From contig MWCJ01000007.1 in NCBI GenBank assembly GCA_002069975.1, positions 1 through 64,000 on the forward strand: a DNA stretch of 64,000 nucleotides. Reading direction: 5' to 3'. The DNA comes from Bacteroidetes bacterium ADurb.Bin217 (GTDB lineage Bacteria > Bacteroidota > Bacteroidia > Bacteroidales > UBA1715). Numbering within the stretch: position 1 is the stretch's first letter; the number at the start of each line of letters is the position of its first letter. A model generated the notes under the pieces. The model did not search any database. It was not told the origin of the DNA and worked only from the letters and a program-made list of their open reading frames with translations. Shown one piece after another: positions 4,109 to 13,991 of the stretch. The translations under genes and the position numbers were made by a program.

Positions 4109-4495
4109 ATGAGTATGAAACAAGTATTGACACTCGCATGCTTTTTGGCGTTTCAAATAACGCTGTATGCACAGAATTACGAATCAATTTTAACATCGTT
4201 TGAACAAGGAGATGTAGACAAATTATCGACGTATTTCGACGAAAATATTGATTTAACAGTTCTCCAAAACGAAGGAATATATAGTAAAGCTCAATCAAAG
4301 GTTATTTTAAAGAATTTTTTTGCAGCCAATACTCCGGCAAAATTTACTATGCAACATCAAGGGGGAGGCGAACAATCTAAATATATAATTGGAAAATTAG
4401 TTTCGAACGATAAATCGTATCGAGTGTATTTTCTGTTTAAAAAATCAAATGAAACAAGAGTAATACAAAAAATAAGAATAGAACATGATAAATAA
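4109..4495 (+). CDS. DUF4783 family secreted protein
   Basis: The 128-residue protein has a signal peptide ending at YAQ (about residue 22) and a mature domain matching the DUF4783 pattern known from Bacteroidota: an SILTSFEQGDVDKLSTYF segment followed by a C-terminal strand ending RIEHDK. DUF4783 proteins are predicted NTF2-like folds and commonly precede nadC. ATG codons at 4109 and 4115 are both usable. The stop overlaps the nadC start by 11 bp, indicating translational coupling. A weak -7-like box (TATTTTTA) at about 4089-4096 fits a promoter. The biochemical role is unknown; location is probably periplasmic. Confidence 0.8.
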   Translation: MSMKQVLTLACFLAFQITLYAQNYESILTSFEQGDVDKLSTYFDENIDLTVLQNEGIYSKAQSKVILKNFFAANTPAKFTMQHQGGGEQSKYIIGKLVSNDKSYRVYFLFKKSNETRVIQKIRIEHDK

Positions 4496-5330
4496 TCAAC
4501 TAATAGATAGTCTTATTTCTATAGCATTACAAGAAGATATAGGCGAAGGAGATCATACAACATTATCGTGCATACCTCATGAATTGCAAGGCAGAGCACA
4601 ATTATTAGTAAAACAAGCGGGAATTTTGTGTGGCGTGGAAGTCGCAAAAAAAATATATCAAACATTTGATCCAACTCTTAGAATCGATGTGTTACTCAAT
4701 GATGGTACTCCTATAAAAAAAGGTGATGTAGCTTTTACGGTTCACGGAAAAACAATATCAATATTGCAAACAGAACGGTTGGTGTTGAATTTTATGCAAC
4801 GATTAAGTGGTATAGCTACTCAAACTAATGAATATGTAAAACTACTCGAAGGAACCAATACCAAAATTTTAGATACGCGTAAAACAACTCCCGGGATGCG
4901 ATTGCTCGAAAAATATGCAGTTACAACCGGTGGAGGCGAAAATCATCGTATAGGCTTGTATGATATGATTTTAATTAAAGACAATCATATAGATTATGCA
5001 GGTGGTGTTACTGCTGCAATTACAATGACCAAAGAGTATTTGCTTTATAATAATTTAGATTTGAAAATTGTGGTTGAAGCTCGTACAATGCAAGATATTG
5101 CCGAAATACTCACGTTTACCGATATTTATAGAATTTTAATAGACAATTTCACTCCAGAACAAACCAAAGAAGCTATAGCGTTTATAAATGGAAGATGTAA
5201 AACTGAATCGTCGGGAGGTATTACTAAAGAAAGTATACGAGCATATGCCGAGGCAGGAGTAGACTATATTTCAGTAGGAGCATTAACGCATCAAATCAAA
5301 AGTCTTGATTTAAGTCTAAAAGCTTACTAA
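4485..5330 (+). CDS. nadC: quinolinate phosphoribosyltransferase (decarboxylating)
   Basis: NadC converts quinolinate and PRPP to nicotinate mononucleotide, CO2 and pyrophosphate in de novo NAD synthesis. The 281-residue length is normal. Family motifs are clear: LDTRKTTPGMR near residues 130-140, the glycine-rich ENHRIGLYDMILIKDNH segment, VVEARTM, and the C-terminal SSGGI...SVGALTH phosphate-binding segment. The start overlaps the preceding DUF4783 gene by 11 bp, and the next gene begins at the base after its stop, so the three form one tightly coupled operon. The enzyme is cytosolic, whereas both neighbours carry export signals. Confidence 0.97.
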   Translation: MINNQLIDSLISIALQEDIGEGDHTTLSCIPHELQGRAQLLVKQAGILCGVEVAKKIYQTFDPTLRIDVLLNDGTPIKKGDVAFTVHGKTISILQTERLVLNFMQRLSGIATQTNEYVKLLEGTNTKILDTRKTTPGMRLLEKYAVTTGGGENHRIGLYDMILIKDNHIDYAGGVTAAITMTKEYLLYNNLDLKIVVEARTMQDIAEILTFTDIYRILIDNFTPEQTKEAIAFINGRCKTESSGGITKESIRAYAEAGVDYISVGALTHQIKSLDLSLKAY

Positions 5331-6980
5331 ATGTTACGTGTAGTGAGTTTTAGATATATTCGAATACTTAGTGTGGTGTTATTTGTTTGTGCGTATGTAT
5401 CTTCTTTTGCACAAGTAAAAAAGCCAAAACTTGTAGTTACAATTGTGGTAGAACAAATGCGTTACGATTATATTAATCGGTTTTTGCCTCATTTTAGTAA
5501 AGCAGGCTTCAAAAAGTTATTGTACCAAGGTGTAAATTGCGAAAATGCTCATACAAATTATGCATATACTCAGAGTGCAAGTGGAATTGCTTCTATTGCT
5601 ACCGCTACCACGCCATCTATGCATGGAATAGTTGGTAATACGTGGTATAATCGTAGCTCGCAATCAAAAATATATAGCGTGCAAGATGCTACGAAAACTT
5701 GTGTCGGTTGTAAAAATTCCGGATCATATACCGTTTCGGCACAACATTTACTTTCTTCAACATTTTCTGAAGAGTTATATGTTGCAAGTCAAGGGAAATC
5801 AAAAATATTTAGCATTGCTTTAGAACCACAATCTGCCGTGCTTATGGCAGGTAAACAAGCTTCCGGTGTATATTGGCTCGACGATTATTCGGGCAATTGG
5901 GTTACTAGTTCGTGTTATTCGTCGCAGTTGCCTCTGTGGTTGCAATCGTTCAATGCAAAACGATTCGCAGAATTGTATGTCGATAGAACTTGGAATACAT
6001 TGTTACCTATTAATTATTATACAGAATCGTTGGGCGATACTTGTAATTTCGAAATTGGTATACAAAATCAAATTACATTTCCGTATTCTATTATGAAATT
6101 ACGCGACAATTCTCGTCCATATAAAATCTTAAAACAAATTCCTTTTGGAAATACATTTACTAAAGATTTGGCAATAGAAATAATTGACAAAGAAAAGTTG
6201 GGGAAAGATGAATTTACAGATTATTTAAGTATTGTATTTACTGCAACGCAAGAAATTGGTAATAAATATGGGGCATTATCTAAAGAGTTGCAAGATACGT
6301 ATGTGCGTTTAGATTATGAGTTAATGTTTTTTATGCAATATTTGGAAGAAACTATCGGAAAAGATAATTTTTTGATTGTACTCACTTCAAATCATGGGGT
6401 GGCATATTCGTCAAAATATACGATGTTGAAACAAAGTGATGCCGGTATTTTTAAACATGTAGAGTCTATGTATATTATTGATAAATATTTAGATACAGTT
6501 TTTGGTAACGGCGATTGGATTCTGTATTATAATTCGCAGCAAATTTATTTGAATCATACGTTTATCGAGAAAAAGCATATTCCTTTACAAGATGTTCAAC
6601 GTGCTGCTGCAGATTTTATTCTACAATTAAGTGGTGTGCAGCATGTTATGATTTCAACTGATTTACAAAAAACTGATTTTTGCAATAATGCCATTGAACA
6701 TAAAATTGATAATTCTTTTTATCAATCACGTTCAGGCGATATTTTTATACAATTAAAACCACATTGGAACGAACAATTAACCGATGTGGTAGCAGGTCAT
6801 GCTTCGGGATACACATACGATTCGCATGTGCCTTTATTGTGGTATGGGGCTGGTATTGTTCCTAAAACTATTAAAAAAACGGTTTACACTCCCGATATTA
6901 TAGTTACTTTATCAAATTTGCTTTCTATACCTCAGCCGTCTATGAGTACAGGAACCATTTTGAGTGAGTTGTTTAATTAA
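5331..6980 (+). CDS. PafA-like alkaline phosphatase superfamily protein, predicted inactive
   Basis: The 549-residue protein has an N-terminal signal (cleavage near SFAQ, residue 28) and the full fold of PafA-type alkaline phosphatases: VVEQMRYDY at 39-47, the TTPSMHGIVGN segment at 93-103, and HVPLLWYGAG near 499. By eye-alignment to PafA, the metal ligands Asp38, Asp305, His309 and Asp352 become Glu41, Gln307, Asn311 and Asn354; nucleophile Thr79 becomes Ser82; and Lys162/Arg164 become Glu165/Gln167. Asn103, His355 and His490 remain. I infer loss of phosphatase activity, leaving a binding or scaffold role. It starts directly after the nadC stop codon. The phosphatase fold call is firm; the role is unknown. 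Confidence 0.85.
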   Translation: MLRVVSFRYIRILSVVLFVCAYVSSFAQVKKPKLVVTIVVEQMRYDYINRFLPHFSKAGFKKLLYQGVNCENAHTNYAYTQSASGIASIATATTPSMHGIVGNTWYNRSSQSKIYSVQDATKTCVGCKNSGSYTVSAQHLLSSTFSEELYVASQGKSKIFSIALEPQSAVLMAGKQASGVYWLDDYSGNWVTSSCYSSQLPLWLQSFNAKRFAELYVDRTWNTLLPINYYTESLGDTCNFEIGIQNQITFPYSIMKLRDNSRPYKILKQIPFGNTFTKDLAIEIIDKEKLGKDEFTDYLSIVFTATQEIGNKYGALSKELQDTYVRLDYELMFFMQYLEETIGKDNFLIVLTSNHGVAYSSKYTMLKQSDAGIFKHVESMYIIDKYLDTVFGNGDWILYYNSQQIYLNHTFIEKKHIPLQDVQRAAADFILQLSGVQHVMISTDLQKTDFCNNAIEHKIDNSFYQSRSGDIFIQLKPHWNEQLTDVVAGHASGYTYDSHVPLLWYGAGIVPKTIKKTVYTPDIIVTLSNLLSIPQPSMSTGTILSELFN

Positions 6981-7028: not shown

Positions 7029-7772
7029 ATGAGAAATATATCTACCATAGCATTTGTAATAGTTGTTTTTTCTATTTGTAATTTAACAGTAAAAGGACAG
7101 ACGCCGGAAAATAAATCAGGCAAAAAGGTGTATACCCAAAGCGTGAGTGATTTGTTGTTTGGTTTTAGCGATTGTGTTGATACTGCAAATCATGCTCTTA
7201 AAAATGGAGTGCGTACTACGTATGTATTTAATTATGGACAGTTTTTACATATCGATGTTTCCAATGCTTTGGGAATTGTTACAGGATTGTCTGTTCGTAA
7301 TGTAGGCATCAAAACCTTTGACGAAACAATACAAAATTTTGAATACGATAAAGTTAAGCGCAGGGTTTTTGCATTAGGGGGCTCCTTTGCTGTTAAAGCT
7401 GGTTCGTTTAGTAATCATAGTTTTGTATATGCCGGAGGCGAATATGAAATGGCTTTTCATTATAGACAAAAATTATATGCAAAATCGAGTAATAAGGTAG
7501 AAAAACAAGGTGAGTGGTTAAGTTCGGCAACTCAAAGGTTTTTACCGTCGGTATTTGTGGGATATCAATTACCATCAAATTTTAATTTTCAAGTAAAATA
7601 TTATTTCGATGATTTTTTAAACCATTCATATAAAGGCGATTTGGGCGATTTTACGGTGTTTAAAAAATCTCAACTTATTTGCTTGGCTATTTCGTATCAA
7701 ATTAATAAAAGTAAAGGAGAGAGTTCTATACTTGAAAAATTAGAAGAGAAAAAAGGGACATTTGATTTGTAA
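7029..7772 (+). CDS. predicted outer-membrane beta-barrel protein
   Basis: The 247-residue product has a signal peptide ending around VKGQ (residue 24) and then alternating amphipathic strands such as FLHIDVSNALGIVTGLSVR, FSNHSFVYAGGEYEMAF and NFQVKYYFDDFLNHSY, the pattern of a small (8-10 strand) outer-membrane barrel. A short Lys/Glu-rich tail follows. It lies 48 bp after the PafA-like gene on the same strand and may be the last gene of that operon. An ATG at 7024 is out of frame, so 7029 is chosen. No specific family was recognised. Confidence 0.65.
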   Translation: MRNISTIAFVIVVFSICNLTVKGQTPENKSGKKVYTQSVSDLLFGFSDCVDTANHALKNGVRTTYVFNYGQFLHIDVSNALGIVTGLSVRNVGIKTFDETIQNFEYDKVKRRVFALGGSFAVKAGSFSNHSFVYAGGEYEMAFHYRQKLYAKSSNKVEKQGEWLSSATQRFLPSVFVGYQLPSNFNFQVKYYFDDFLNHSYKGDLGDFTVFKKSQLICLAISYQINKSKGESSILEKLEEKKGTFDL

Positions 7773-7917
7773 TAGTGTTTTAATGTGCGATTCTATGTTA
7801 TAACTACTTCTACATTCTTTTAAAATAAGTAGTTGTACAATAAAATAAAGCTACATTAAACATACTTCCATATTTCAAAGGGGTTCGTAGTAATTTTAAA
7901 AATAAATATTGTATCAG

Positions 7918-10641
7918 ATGAAAAAAATAATAATACTGTTAGTAATACTATGTATACAAGTTGGTGTAGGTCTATCGCAAGAAATGTATTATACATTATA
8001 TTCAAATGGGGAATTCGATAAATTAGAAAAACGATTGCAACAAGCTATTGCAAATCAGCCTCAGAATGTATTATTTAATCATGTGTACGGATTATTATAT
8101 GCTCATACGCAATACCAAAAACATGATTTACACAAAGCCTACGAATATGTTGCTCAAGCAAAAACATTGTATCCCAACATTAGTGTGAACGATAAAGAGC
8201 GTTTTTCTAAATTAGGATTAACACAATCGCGTATTAACAAAGATTTGGATACTATTTGTAAGCAATTGTGGAACAAAGCTTTAGATGCTAACACAATAGA
8301 AGCTTGTAATGCATTTATAAACAATTATGATAAAGCATCTAAACCTATTAAAGAACAAGCTGTAGAGTATCGTAATAATTTGGCGTTTACCGATGCAAAA
8401 ACAAAAAATACCATAGAAGCATATAATTCATTTATTCAAACATATTCGAAAGCACAACAGGTAGAAACAGCAATACAATTACGCGACGAAATAGCCTACA
8501 ATAAAGTTATGAAAACTAATACTCTGGAGGCGTTCAGGCAATTTATGAAAGAATACCCTCAAAGTTCATTTTACAAACAAATTAATACCTTGTATTCACA
8601 GCAATTATTTGCTGAGGCTACCAAAAATAAAGATTATAAGAGCTATGAGAAATTTATCAGAGATAATCCTTCGAATCCTATGTTACCATTGGCAATTGAA
8701 AATATGGTAGATATCGCAAAACAAAAACAAGATATAAAATTGCTAAAAAAAACAGTAGATTATAGCGTTGGTATCCATTATAATTATGCCTTGTATGAAT
8801 ATTTCAAAGAATTTACGAAAGATGGTGAATATTTAACTTTATATACATTTGTGCAACAATATCCTCGGTCGTTCTTAGATACATTATTAGCCAAGGAATT
8901 TAAAATTGCTGAAAAAGGTGAACGGTTAGATTTGGCAAAACCCTACGATACAGTTATGGCAAAGTATTTTGAAGAATATATCAAATTGGCGGCGCCAAAA
9001 GAAAAAGCATTTGTGGCATTACAAAAATATATTTCGAACGATGTTATAGCAAAAAATTGGAAGCAAGCACTTACAAAAGTTAAAACATTTGAACCGTATT
9101 TTGGGAAAAATAATCCGAAAATACTCGATTTAATAGCAATATTATCTGCACCATACGATGCTAATATAATAGTACGTTCAATTCCCGGACAAGTAAATAC
9201 TCCAACGGGAGGCGAATATGCACCTATAATTACCGCCGACAATAAACATTTGTATTTTTGTGGAAGCAAACGCCCCGATAATATTGGTAACGAAGATATA
9301 TTCATAAGCGACAACGAACAAGGAGAATGGGGAAAACCAAAGCTTTTGCGTGAATTGAGTACCCCGCAGTATAACGAAGCTGTTATAAGTATAAGCACCG
9401 ACGGTACTCAAATGATTTATTTTAGAGAGGGAATTATTTATTATAGCGAAAAATCATTTGGAGGTTGGTCGCAAGGAGTTTCTGTATCCGATTATATTAA
9501 TAGTGGCGAATGGACAGGTGATGCATGGATAACAGGAGATGGTAAAGCATTAATATTTGCTGCCGTTAGAAGCGAAGGTATGAATTATTATACGCAGCAA
9601 AATGCAAATCTTGGAGTATATCATGGAGCCATTCATCATCAGTCCGATTTATATGTAAGTATTAAGCAATCGAGCGGTGCATGGGGTAAACCTAAAAGTT
9701 TGGGACCTGTAATAAATACTATTTATACCGAACGAAGTCCATTTTTGTATCATGATATGAAAACTTTATATTTTAGTTCCGACGGACATGGTGGAGTAGG
9801 TAATTTAGATGTATTTAAAACTACTCGTTTGAGCGATACCTGCTGGGATTGCTGGAGTACTCCCATAAATTTAGGAAAAGAAATAAATACTCCCGAAGAA
9901 AATTGGGGATATAGAATTTCTCCCGATGCTAAGAATTTTTATTTTGCAGCTCGTAAAACAGGCGAAAAATTTAACGATATTATGTATGTGTCTATTCCTG
10001 CCAAATTTTTACCCGAACATGTGGTATGCCTCACCGGAACTTTGGTGGACTCAAAAAATAAACCTATATCGGCAACTATTATCTATGAAGATTTAACTTT
10101 AGGAACTATAGTTGGCGAGGCAAAAACCGACCCTATTGATGGTTCATATTTTATAGTATTACCCAACGGTAAATTATATGGGTATTATGTACAACACGAT
10201 ACCTATTACCCTCAATCACATTTTGTTGATTTAACAAAAAGCAAAGAATCGCGGACTGTTCGAGAAGATATTAAAGCTGTGAGTTTTGATCAAATGAAAC
10301 AAGAAAAAATAGCTGTTCGATTAAATAATTTATTTTTTGATACCAATAAAAGTGAATTGTTGCCATATTCAATTCCCGAATTGCAACGTGTAGCTAAGAT
10401 TATACAAACATATCAGTTGCGTATTGAAATCAGTGGGCATACCGATAATGTAGGAGAAGATAATTTTAATATGGATTTATCGCTGCGGCGAGCTCAGGCT
10501 GTTAAAGACTTCTTAGTAGCACATGGTTGTGATTCTGCCTTGTTCGAAGTAAAAGGTTATGGCGAAACCAAACCGGCACAAACCAACGAAACTGTTGAGG
10601 GAAGAGCGAAAAATAGACGAGTAGAATTGCGGTTTTTATAA
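7918..10641 (+). CDS. porE: PorE-like envelope protein: TPR, beta-propeller, CRD and OmpA domains
   Basis: The domain order matches PorE, the T9SS-associated protein of Porphyromonas: signal peptide (about 1-20), helical TPR-like repeats with recurring AYNSFI/AFRQFM patterns (about 25-370), WD40-like PD40 propeller repeats (about 415-680), a carboxypeptidase-regulatory-like domain starting LTGTLVDSKNKPIS (about 700), and an OmpA C-terminal peptidoglycan-binding domain with FFDTNKSELLP, ISGHTDNVG and NRRVELRF (about 797-907). The ATG at 7918 starts the signal peptide; a TTG at 7909 also opens the frame but is less likely. It should tether an outer-membrane or periplasmic complex to peptidoglycan. 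Other OmpA/PD40 proteins share parts of this plan, so the symbol is tentative. Confidence 0.8.
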   Translation: MKKIIILLVILCIQVGVGLSQEMYYTLYSNGEFDKLEKRLQQAIANQPQNVLFNHVYGLLYAHTQYQKHDLHKAYEYVAQAKTLYPNISVNDKERFSKLGLTQSRINKDLDTICKQLWNKALDANTIEACNAFINNYDKASKPIKEQAVEYRNNLAFTDAKTKNTIEAYNSFIQTYSKAQQVETAIQLRDEIAYNKVMKTNTLEAFRQFMKEYPQSSFYKQINTLYSQQLFAEATKNKDYKSYEKFIRDNPSNPMLPLAIENMVDIAKQKQDIKLLKKTVDYSVGIHYNYALYEYFKEFTKDGEYLTLYTFVQQYPRSFLDTLLAKEFKIAEKGERLDLAKPYDTVMAKYFEEYIKLAAPKEKAFVALQKYISNDVIAKNWKQALTKVKTFEPYFGKNNPKILDLIAILSAPYDANIIVRSIPGQVNTPTGGEYAPIITADNKHLYFCGSKRPDNIGNEDIFISDNEQGEWGKPKLLRELSTPQYNEAVISISTDGTQMIYFREGIIYYSEKSFGGWSQGVSVSDYINSGEWTGDAWITGDGKALIFAAVRSEGMNYYTQQNANLGVYHGAIHHQSDLYVSIKQSSGAWGKPKSLGPVINTIYTERSPFLYHDMKTLYFSSDGHGGVGNLDVFKTTRLSDTCWDCWSTPINLGKEINTPEENWGYRISPDAKNFYFAARKTGEKFNDIMYVSIPAKFLPEHVVCLTGTLVDSKNKPISATIIYEDLTLGTIVGEAKTDPIDGSYFIVLPNGKLYGYYVQHDTYYPQSHFVDLTKSKESRTVREDIKAVSFDQMKQEKIAVRLNNLFFDTNKSELLPYSIPELQRVAKIIQTYQLRIEISGHTDNVGEDNFNMDLSLRRAQAVKDFLVAHGCDSALFEVKGYGETKPAQTNETVEGRAKNRRVELRFL

Positions 10642-10784: not shown

Positions 10785-13700
10785 TTATTGCTTAATTATT
10801 TTATTTGATAATAATTTTCCTTCAATTCTTATTGTTAAAATATATATACCATTTTCCAAATCTGATAAATCAATACTGTTTTTATTTTTTGTTTTAACTA
10901 ATACAGAACCTGTAGTTGAACACAATTCTAAATCAAAGTCTTTATTTGTTTCAATATGTAAAAGTCCATCTGTTGGATTTGGGAAAAATGAAATTATTTC
11001 TTCGCCTACATTATCAACAGAATTAGTATTTGTTGTAACTGAAATATAACTAGTTTTTGTTATGGTATTGCTACCTATATTATTTGTGCTAGTTAATGAT
11101 ACTTGGTATATTCCTGCTGAATTATATATAACCGCTGGATTTTGTTGGTTTGATGTTGAAGGAATTCCACTTTCAAAAGTCCAATTCCATGATGTTGGAT
11201 TGTTTATAGATAAATCCATAAATTGAACATAGAAAGGGGTTACACCCGATTTAACATCCGCAGTAAAATTTGCAATTGGAGTTAAATCTAAGCTTCTAGT
11301 ACCTACAGCATAAAAAACAGGCCATTTAGCATCATTTACAATAATAGAAGTAGACCCAATACCAGTTATTTTGTTCGTTGCTACTGAAATAGATGCAACA
11401 ACTTCTTCATCACTCAAATTTAAAGCTGAAAAGGCAATTTTATCATCATTCTTTGAATAGCTTGGATAACCAACTGTTGCATTAGTTGTTATCAAATCTA
11501 ATTCGCCTGTTAATAAATTTGCTCCAAATATTGCATATTCATTAGTTTCGCTATCTAAGTAATCAAAAGCAATTATATAGGGCGAATTATTAGAAAATGT
11601 AGGGTTGCCGATACTTACATTTTCAGGAAGTGAACCATATAATTTATTAATTGTACCATCACCAAAATCATTAGTAATGTTATCCCAAACTTTAATAAAA
11701 CCTATATCCCAATAATTAATATCATCACCGGTAGAAGTTTTTAACTCATTAAATGCATCATATATTAAATACTCGCCAGTATGGTCAAATTCTATAGCAT
11801 CTGCAAATAAAACACCTCCAGCATCAGTTCCACTATGACTAGTAGTAGGATTGTATAAACTAAATTTGGACCATTGATCACTTATAAAATCATAAACATA
11901 TATTGCTGTATCTATTTCTGTGGAAATAGCAGCTAAACGATTTCCATCTTTTGAAATAGCTACATTATCAAAAAATGCATCATCAGAGAGATAAAATTCT
12001 TGTTTATCATTTGGGTCTGTACTTATTATTTTTATTTTGTCATCAGTTGCAACAAATACAGCTCCACTGCCATCATCAGAAACACTAACGCTCCCTTTCA
12101 TTTCAGAAGTGGATAGAGCAAAAAAATCTGTTCCTGTGATTGATGACCTATATAATGTATTTGAGTTTGCTAAATTAGTGTCATAAGTCAATAAATAATC
12201 TTGACCTGGATTTACGGGATAGTCCTGTGCATAATCGATACTTTCCTCATCATATATCCCAACTGCATTAAACGCATTCCCGGCTTCTACTACTTCTGTA
12301 GAACTATCACCATATAAGTCTTTAGCTGCCTGTATAACTGCAATTCTAAAATCTATAAATTGAGACTTACTTGTTAGATAATTTGTTAATGCTCTGTAAA
12401 ATACTTGTTCTGCCTTTTCTTTTGTTATTGAAGTAGCGTAAAGATAATATGCATAATTTCCAATACCACTATTTATATGAACGCCGCCATTATCTCCTTC
12501 TCCAATATACATTTCTGTTATATGATTAGGTTGCCAATAATCATTTGAAGAATTACCTAAATTGTGTGGGTCTGACATATTTCTTAAAGCACCAGATGGT
12601 GAGAATGCTGTTTTTGTAACATCCTCTCCAATTAACCAGTCATCTCTGTCTACCATTGCACCGAAAATATCAGCAAATGTTTCATTTATTGCACCTGATT
12701 GTCCTTGATATTCAAGATTTGCGGTATTTGAAACTACACCATGTCCTAATTCATGAGCAATTACGTCTAAAGCACCTGCAAGAGCATAAAAATAAGAATC
12801 ACCATTCCCGTAAAAAGCAGCTTTTCCATTCCAAAAAGCGTTCCCCATCGAACTCCCATCTTCATTTGCAATATTAATAAAAGATAAAATATTGCCACCT
12901 TGACCATTAATAGAATTACGTCCAAATGTATTGTAAAAATATTTATAAGTAGCAGTTGTGTTATAATGTGCAGAAATAGCGGTTTTATTAGACCAAGTAT
13001 TATTTGATGAAGTGATAGTTGAATAGTCCAAATCTGCTGTAGATGTATTATTTGCATTTAAAGTTAAAATAACCCCTTCCTGTGACGTCGAATTATACAT
13101 ACTTTCTGATGCGTTTAGTAAAATGTAAGAGCCAGTTTCAAGATACGTATCAATTGTTCTTAAAACATTATTTAAATCGTATGCGGTAGCGGTAGTTGGA
13201 CCATCGGAATGAGTATTATTGAACATATTTATTATTGCTCCACTTTGAGCATCTACAAAATATTTCCATTCTTGAATAAAATTCGGACGTATTGAAATTT
13301 CATAAGCAAGTTTATTCTCATAAATTATTAGATTAATCAGAGGAGTATCATATTTTAATATTTCTTTTTGTTTTACAGATAATTCTTTTATAACTGTTTT
13401 TATTGCTAAATCTGTATTTACAATTCGTAATACTTCTGCTTTAGAAATATTTGGCGTAATTGTAATTATATCGGCTAAATCATATATGTATCCATTAAAA
13501 ATATCTTTTTTTGAACCTATATGAACAAATGATTCTGCACCATATACTTTTAGTCCTTTGAAATATTGTTGTGCTTTAATATGAGTAATACCTATATTGT
13601 CAGTATGGATTCCTGTTATTTTTAATTGTTTTGAAGGATCTGACAACTTCGTATTCTGCTTTATTGAGTTATGAAAAGCATAAAATTCTTCTTCGGATGT

Positions 13701-13991
13701 TTGAGTTTTCGCTGATTTTAGTGCAGATTTTTCTTTTACTAAAAACCTAGGAACTTCATTTTTGTTTAATTCAGGTTTCTTTATGTTTTGAGAAATAGAA
13801 AAGGTATTTTGCGAATTGCTTATTGTTGTTGATTTTAAAGATGATTTTCCTGTTATTTTATTAAAATTCAAACTAGTATTAGTTGTGCCAAATTGTTTTT
13901 TTGAATAAGCTTTAAAATTATTGCCTATTTGTGCTTGTAAATTGAAAGAAAATGCAAACACAATTATTGGAAAGAGTAAAAATTGTTTCAT
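10785..13991 (-). CDS. secreted M4 (thermolysin-like) metalloprotease with PKD and T9SS C-terminal domain
   Basis: The 1068-residue preproprotein has a signal peptide (to about LQAQ, residue 21), an FTP/PepSY-type propeptide (about 80-255), and an M4 catalytic domain with zinc motif HELGH at 413-417, third ligand Glu437 (NETFADIFG) and GGVHINSG with His505. A PD40-like propeller region follows (about 610-890), then a PKD domain (about 905-985, with WNWTFESG), and a type-A T9SS sorting domain (about 1000-1068) containing SFFPNPTDG and ending NKIIKQ. It is predicted to be exported by the T9SS to the cell surface. A small lipoprotein gene ends 7 bp upstream. The block is CpG-poor compared with der. 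Confidence 0.95.
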   Translation of the reverse strand: MKQFLLFPIIVFAFSFNLQAQIGNNFKAYSKKQFGTTNTSLNFNKITGKSSLKSTTISNSQNTFSISQNIKKPELNKNEVPRFLVKEKSALKSAKTQTSEEEFYAFHNSIKQNTKLSDPSKQLKITGIHTDNIGITHIKAQQYFKGLKVYGAESFVHIGSKKDIFNGYIYDLADIITITPNISKAEVLRIVNTDLAIKTVIKELSVKQKEILKYDTPLINLIIYENKLAYEISIRPNFIQEWKYFVDAQSGAIINMFNNTHSDGPTTATAYDLNNVLRTIDTYLETGSYILLNASESMYNSTSQEGVILTLNANNTSTADLDYSTITSSNNTWSNKTAISAHYNTTATYKYFYNTFGRNSINGQGGNILSFINIANEDGSSMGNAFWNGKAAFYGNGDSYFYALAGALDVIAHELGHGVVSNTANLEYQGQSGAINETFADIFGAMVDRDDWLIGEDVTKTAFSPSGALRNMSDPHNLGNSSNDYWQPNHITEMYIGEGDNGGVHINSGIGNYAYYLYATSITKEKAEQVFYRALTNYLTSKSQFIDFRIAVIQAAKDLYGDSSTEVVEAGNAFNAVGIYDEESIDYAQDYPVNPGQDYLLTYDTNLANSNTLYRSSITGTDFFALSTSEMKGSVSVSDDGSGAVFVATDDKIKIISTDPNDKQEFYLSDDAFFDNVAISKDGNRLAAISTEIDTAIYVYDFISDQWSKFSLYNPTTSHSGTDAGGVLFADAIEFDHTGEYLIYDAFNELKTSTGDDINYWDIGFIKVWDNITNDFGDGTINKLYGSLPENVSIGNPTFSNNSPYIIAFDYLDSETNEYAIFGANLLTGELDLITTNATVGYPSYSKNDDKIAFSALNLSDEEVVASISVATNKITGIGSTSIIVNDAKWPVFYAVGTRSLDLTPIANFTADVKSGVTPFYVQFMDLSINNPTSWNWTFESGIPSTSNQQNPAVIYNSAGIYQVSLTSTNNIGSNTITKTSYISVTTNTNSVDNVGEEIISFFPNPTDGLLHIETNKDFDLELCSTTGSVLVKTKNKNSIDLSDLENGIYILTIRIEGKLLSNKIIKQ

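Follow-up and report, generated by a model that had tools for sequence, protein, structure and literature searches.

What keeps an exported protein with the fold of the alkaline phosphatase PafA in a genome, once most of its catalytic residues are gone? The question is raised by a gene directly behind nadC in a 64,000-nucleotide stretch of Bacteroidetes bacterium ADurb.Bin217 (contig MWCJ01000007.1, positions 1 to 64,000; hereafter the window). Dead enzymes kept as partners, or pseudoenzymes, combine a conserved fold with lost catalysis and purifying selection. The 549-aa protein encoded here is a variant of this kind, built on a known fold. Like pseudoenzymes in general it has kept the fold and lost catalysis, but almost every lineage shows its own pattern of residue drift. 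The explanation we favour, at about an even chance, is that this non-catalytic PafA orthologue is a periplasmic partner of lipoprotein N-acylation, most likely an accessory of Lnb. Lnb is described as the Bacteroides lipoprotein N-acyltransferase (Armbruster et al. 2024, doi 10.1073/pnas.2410909121, as reported in PMC12345273 and PMC13103446).

A PafA fold without phosphatase residues

The 549-aa protein is an exported PafA homologue, matching PafA (PDB 5TJ3) by phmmer with an E value of 4e-92 and 34% identity across residues 29–547. It was the sole PafA homologue in its own genome. The frame is open throughout, and both phmmer and Foldseek recovered the AP-superfamily fold (PF01663) with the PafA-type inserts over the full length. 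An AlphaFold2 model based on ten aligned sequences had a mean pLDDT of 77 and a pTM of 0.78. Its best Foldseek matches were the PafA structures 5TOO (E 9e-48) and 5TJ3 (E 2e-47). The protein is thus like PafA in fold, secretion signal and insert domains, but it has lost most of the catalytic residues and scored 515 bits against the NCBIfam profile alk_phos_PafA (NF042991), under the cut-off of 650 bits.

Seven of the ten PafA catalytic positions were changed (D38E, T79S, K162E, R164Q, D305Q, H309N and D352N), both in the phmmer alignment to 5TJ3 and in two MAFFT family alignments. N100, H353 and H486 were retained, as N103, H355 and H490 (Table 1). The metal-ligand set D38/D305/H309/D352/H353/H486 reads E/Q/N/N/H/H, and T79/N100/K162/R164 reads S/N/E/Q. 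Every residue loss listed in a sequence-only reading of the locus was borne out by these alignments, and so were the intact structural segments and open frame that it had described. The flanks of the catalytic positions aligned without gaps (e.g., STDYVGHNF in PafA with ATQEIGNKY in the window, and LSADHGA with LTSNHGV), so no placement of intact ligands elsewhere was apparent. Loss of the two-metal phosphatase site, upkeep as a protein and export, all claimed by the same reading, are supported as far as sequence comparison reaches. The top structural match, 5TOO, is a laboratory mutant of PafA (T79S/N100A/K162A/R164A) in which the other metal ligands are kept. The window protein shares with it T79S and the loss of K162 and R164, but has lost D38, D305, H309 and D352 too.

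Table 1 Features at and around the PafA-like gene in the window.
Feature	Position	Strand	Basis
DUF4783 protein, overlapping the nadC start	4109..4495	+	PF16022, E 3e-29
nadC, quinolinate phosphoribosyltransferase, abutting upstream	4485..5330	+	TIGR00078, 298.6 bits (cut-off 198.4)
PafA-fold protein without phosphatase residues, 549 aa	5331..6980	+	Profile, PDB, own-genome and Foldseek searches
Probable signal peptide, residues 1–27 (MLRVVSFRYIRILSVVLFVCAYVSSFA, followed by Q), without lipobox Cys	5331..5411	+	Sequence reading; modelled helix 2–25
Glu41, replacing PafA Asp38 (metal ligand)	5451..5453	+	Alignments
Ser82, replacing PafA Thr79 (nucleophile)	5574..5576	+	Alignments
Glu165 and Gln167, replacing PafA Lys162 and Arg164 (phosphate contacts)	5823..5831	+	Alignments
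Gln307 and Asn311, replacing PafA Asp305 and His309 (metal ligands)	6249..6263	+	Alignments
Asn354, replacing PafA Asp352; His355, the retained PafA His353	6390..6395	+	Alignments
His490, the retained PafA His486	6798..6800	+	Alignments
247-aa exported protein, family unassigned	7029..7772	+	Homologues (c1) at 7 loci

Active-site drift across the order

Of the 295 genomes (≥90% complete) sampled from the window's order, several related contigs of which are titled Bacteroidales, 181 encoded a PafA-like protein. The family alignment comprised 68 proteins, namely PafA and 67 members from the order. Of these 67, 62 were broken and kept at most five of the ten catalytic residues; 58 different residue combinations occurred among them, and some retained none of the ten. 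Six of the 68 aligned proteins, PafA among them, kept nine or ten. Column variability at catalytic positions 79, 164, 305, 309 and 486 lay between the 87th and 98th percentile; scaffold residues such as P32, G59, W221, E319 and D322 were invariant in all aligned members.

Elsewhere in the class, the 29 best-scoring homologues from other orders were all intact at the same ten positions (DTNKRDHDHH), a set chosen by score and hence not a census. These intact homologues and the identical residue set of the window protein's nearest relative indicate that the residue loss is not due to chance. The gene crcB adjoins intact copies of other orders as well as three broken copies (L007, L047 and L055), and intact and broken copies are in places orthologous by position. 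In a tree calculated without the catalytic columns, intact and broken proteins were intermixed, with an intact copy (G183) and a broken one (G254) as sisters. At least four losses are required if loss is irreversible, many branches of this tree being weakly supported. The largest broken group may go back to one loss followed by drift. Judging from alignment and tree, the active site appears to have drifted several times over across the order while the fold persisted, which makes the family a clean natural case of chemistry lost more than once and another role kept.

The scaffold of the 549-aa protein is intact and purifying selection acts on it. Its closest relative (G001/L002; 76% protein identity) carries the same ten-letter set, ESNEQQNNHH. 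The dN/dS against this relative was ~0.12, a rough value with a dS of 1.5, close to saturation; three further pairs with computable dS gave 0.09–0.17, again rough, with dS near saturation. A gene on its way to decay, still in frame by chance or through coupling to nadC, might be suspected from the patchy presence in the order and from the internal stop in a few copies (G104, G176 and G041). The full-length frames, the dN/dS of ~0.1 at 20–30% protein divergence, and the scaffold residues that are invariant even in very distant members make decay very improbable.

We also regard as improbable an altered enzyme, that is, a one-metal site (Glu41, Ser82, His355 and His490 remain) or other chemistry on a different substrate. 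Glu is common at position 38 (30 of the 62 broken members), and His353 and His486 are kept in the window protein and in most of its family, as this explanation would have it. Against it stands the lack of a constant replacement set in the broken proteins. The pocket loops also have the lowest confidence in the model (pLDDT <50 at residues 78–84, 99–114 and 485–491), though with only ten aligned sequences behind it. The phosphate-contacting residues T79, N100, K162 and R164 vary among the relatives, which weakens the suggestion of the sequence-only reading that the protein binds a phosphorylated ligand.

No description of pseudo-PafA proteins was found in the literature searched. Gut PafA sequences have been placed with Bacteroidales, in a paper whose searched passages do not discuss residue loss (PMC8812569). 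PafA homologues are readily tallied as phosphatases in phosphorus-cycling surveys; most of those examined here from this order cannot be.

nadC and other neighbours

The stop codon of nadC (5328–5330) abuts the ATG at 5331 with zero gap. The back-to-back arrangement, from which joint translation with an NAD biosynthesis enzyme had been proposed, is real and recurs in 10 of 12 genomes examined from the window's family, the two genes being separated by -4 to +11 bases. It is not a feature of the protein family as a whole: orthologues outside the window's family adjoin crcB, murF/gldJ, gldD-gldE or Lnb-SecA, and nadC was the neighbour in none of the other families examined. The pairing is best read as shared transcription, perhaps with coupled translation, within one family. 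A functional tie to NAD synthesis is suggested by the abutting genes. We consider it highly unlikely because of this restriction, and also because NadC is cytoplasmic and the PafA-like protein exported.

The type of 247-aa protein encoded downstream follows the PafA-like gene only in the window's family and had no match in Pfam or NCBIfam. When the small exported proteins after the PafA-like gene were compared between the window's and other families, HH-align matched signal peptides only. Further downstream (7909–10641) is a 910-aa protein of the OmpA family that contains PD40 propeller repeats and is similar to the CHU_0125/PorE type, with scores below both cut-offs. It is followed on the minus strand (10785–13991) by a 1068-aa thermolysin-family (M4) protease that has an FTP propeptide, a PKD domain and a sorting tail for type IX secretion. 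The genome also encodes a sortase of this secretion system. We considered a role in type IX secretion, given the PorE/CHU_0125-like protein and the presence of PorU, PorP, GldJ, GldD or GldE near some orthologues. It was rejected as the main reading, as the neighbours vary by lineage and PorU was found in 56 of 60 relatives regardless of the PafA-like gene.

Adjacency and fusion with Lnb

The PafA-like gene adjoined Lnb in at least 41 genomes from 24 genera (by coordinates, with one fusion counted among them). The usual order at these loci was Lnb-PafA-SecA, with the genes close together and some touching or overlapping. Six genomes from five genera of one family (G053, G562, G559, G575, G554 and G569) encoded Lnb-PafA fusions as single frames of 911–932 aa (loci L204, L205, L206, L207, L208 and L072; f41 genomes). 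The fusions were composed of Lnb_N, the Lnb transmembrane domain and a PafA-like domain. In the G569 fusion the Pfam Phosphodiest score was under the cut-off, and the family profile matched at E 9e-84. The PafA half of the G053 fusion, aligned to PafA, kept one of the ten catalytic residues. The fusions were 27–44% identical between genera, which argues against an assembly artefact. For L072, the first fusion seen, which still has the PafA signal peptide where the two parts meet, a single sequencing slip merging neighbouring genes was considered. This was dropped after a family-wide search had turned up five more genomes with a fusion, four of them in other genera.

Lnb (PF13387 plus PF25221; NF051878) carries the acyltransferase, by which lipoproteins receive their final fatty acid; deletion of Lnb reportedly leaves lipoproteins diacylated. 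The window protein has relatives adjacent to or fused with Lnb; it differs in having no Lnb domain and in being unlinked in its own genome, where Lnb (L129) lies on another contig (G000:C2:90360-91511) and keeps the invariant His47 and Cys145. Lnt was not detected in this genome, which is therefore Lnb-only.

Co-occurrence with Lnb and Lnt

Among the 295 genomes, 131 had both the PafA-like gene and Lnb, 50 only the PafA-like gene, 21 only Lnb and 93 neither (odds ratio 11.6, P 3e-20, from genome lists transcribed by hand from tables). Counted by genus, the PafA-like/Lnb figures were 82/29/12/54 (odds ratio 12.7, P 4e-13), and with genera having adjacent genes removed 58/29/12/54 (odds ratio 9.0, P 2e-9); these statistics assume independent genomes or genera, an assumption that does not hold. 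No association of PafA with Lnb was seen in other orders (counts 21/134/9/73; odds ratio 1.27, P 0.68), whose inspected PafAs were intact. The number of catalytic residues kept did not differ between genomes with and without Lnb (P 0.41).

Lnt and Lnb were nearly exclusive (both 36, Lnb only 116, Lnt only 133, neither 10; odds ratio 0.023, P 7e-37), a pattern consistent with a swap of one N-acyltransferase for the other. The PafA-like gene was present in 105 of the 116 Lnb-only genomes (91%), 26 of the 36 with both enzymes, 47 of the 133 Lnt-only genomes and three of the ten with neither. The PafA-like gene stays unchanged where Lnb and Lnt are exchanged within four families (f8, f24, f77 and f107), and shared ancestry therefore accounts for part of the co-occurrence. 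The 11 Lnb-only genomes without a PafA-like gene include one genus with Lnb and SecA directly adjacent. Such an arrangement was seen at L113 and L123 (genus g69), with Lnb directly beside SecA and no PafA-like gene between them.

Most of the sampled PafA homologues from the 47 Lnt-only genomes were broken. Lnb is thus not the sole reason for the PafA-like gene, and another or older role besides Lnb must exist. These copies favour a general envelope scaffold, in which a second, protein-binding role of the ancestral PafA alone survives, apart from lipoprotein acylation, and links to Lnb came later in some lineages only. Residues typical of the broken clade, such as W396 and G435, that occur even in intact proteins from this order point the same way, as do the varied neighbourhoods (the type IX secretion genes porU/porP/gldJ, gldD-gldE, nadC). 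We hold this to be possible but rather doubtful, as it does not account for the high retention in Lnb-only genomes, or for why one particular enzyme should repeatedly be encoded next to the protein or be fused with it. An envelope scaffold was the better of the two guesses made from the sequence; the evidence now points to lipoprotein N-acylation as its site.

A proposed role in lipoprotein N-acylation

What the computation establishes is the fold, the residue loss, the purifying selection, the order-wide drift, the adjacency to and fusion with Lnb in relatives, and the co-occurrence with Lnb. A functional partnership is very probable in the linked and fused lineages. For the window copy, being unlinked, a partner role is inferred from its relatives, and we put it at close to even. 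If the link is true, the partner of a recently discovered lipoprotein enzyme has so far been overlooked.

Lnb carries an invariant Gly-His and an invariant Asn-Cys, and presumably therefore performs the acyl transfer itself, through the invariant His and Cys. The exported PafA-fold part would sit on the periplasmic side of Lnb, where it may hold or orient the apolipoprotein or the phospholipid donor, or stabilise Lnb. A docking or substrate-holding role without use of the old active site would be the simplest reading. Since acyl transfer by Lnb would need no PafA active site, the site would be free to drift. On a wider scale, repeated active-site loss could have made a Bacteroidales alkaline phosphatase into a dedicated non-catalytic subunit, with Lnb a two-component system in many species, the window's included; to this broader proposal we give slightly less than an even chance.

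In many families, the PafA-like gene lies opposite a conserved block of ssb, gldE, gldD, sfp and geranylgeranylglyceryl phosphate synthase (L045, L050, L141, L145, L146 and L148). This is perhaps noteworthy because lipoprotein N-acetylation in Bacillus draws on a prenylglycerol lipid donor (PMC12345273).
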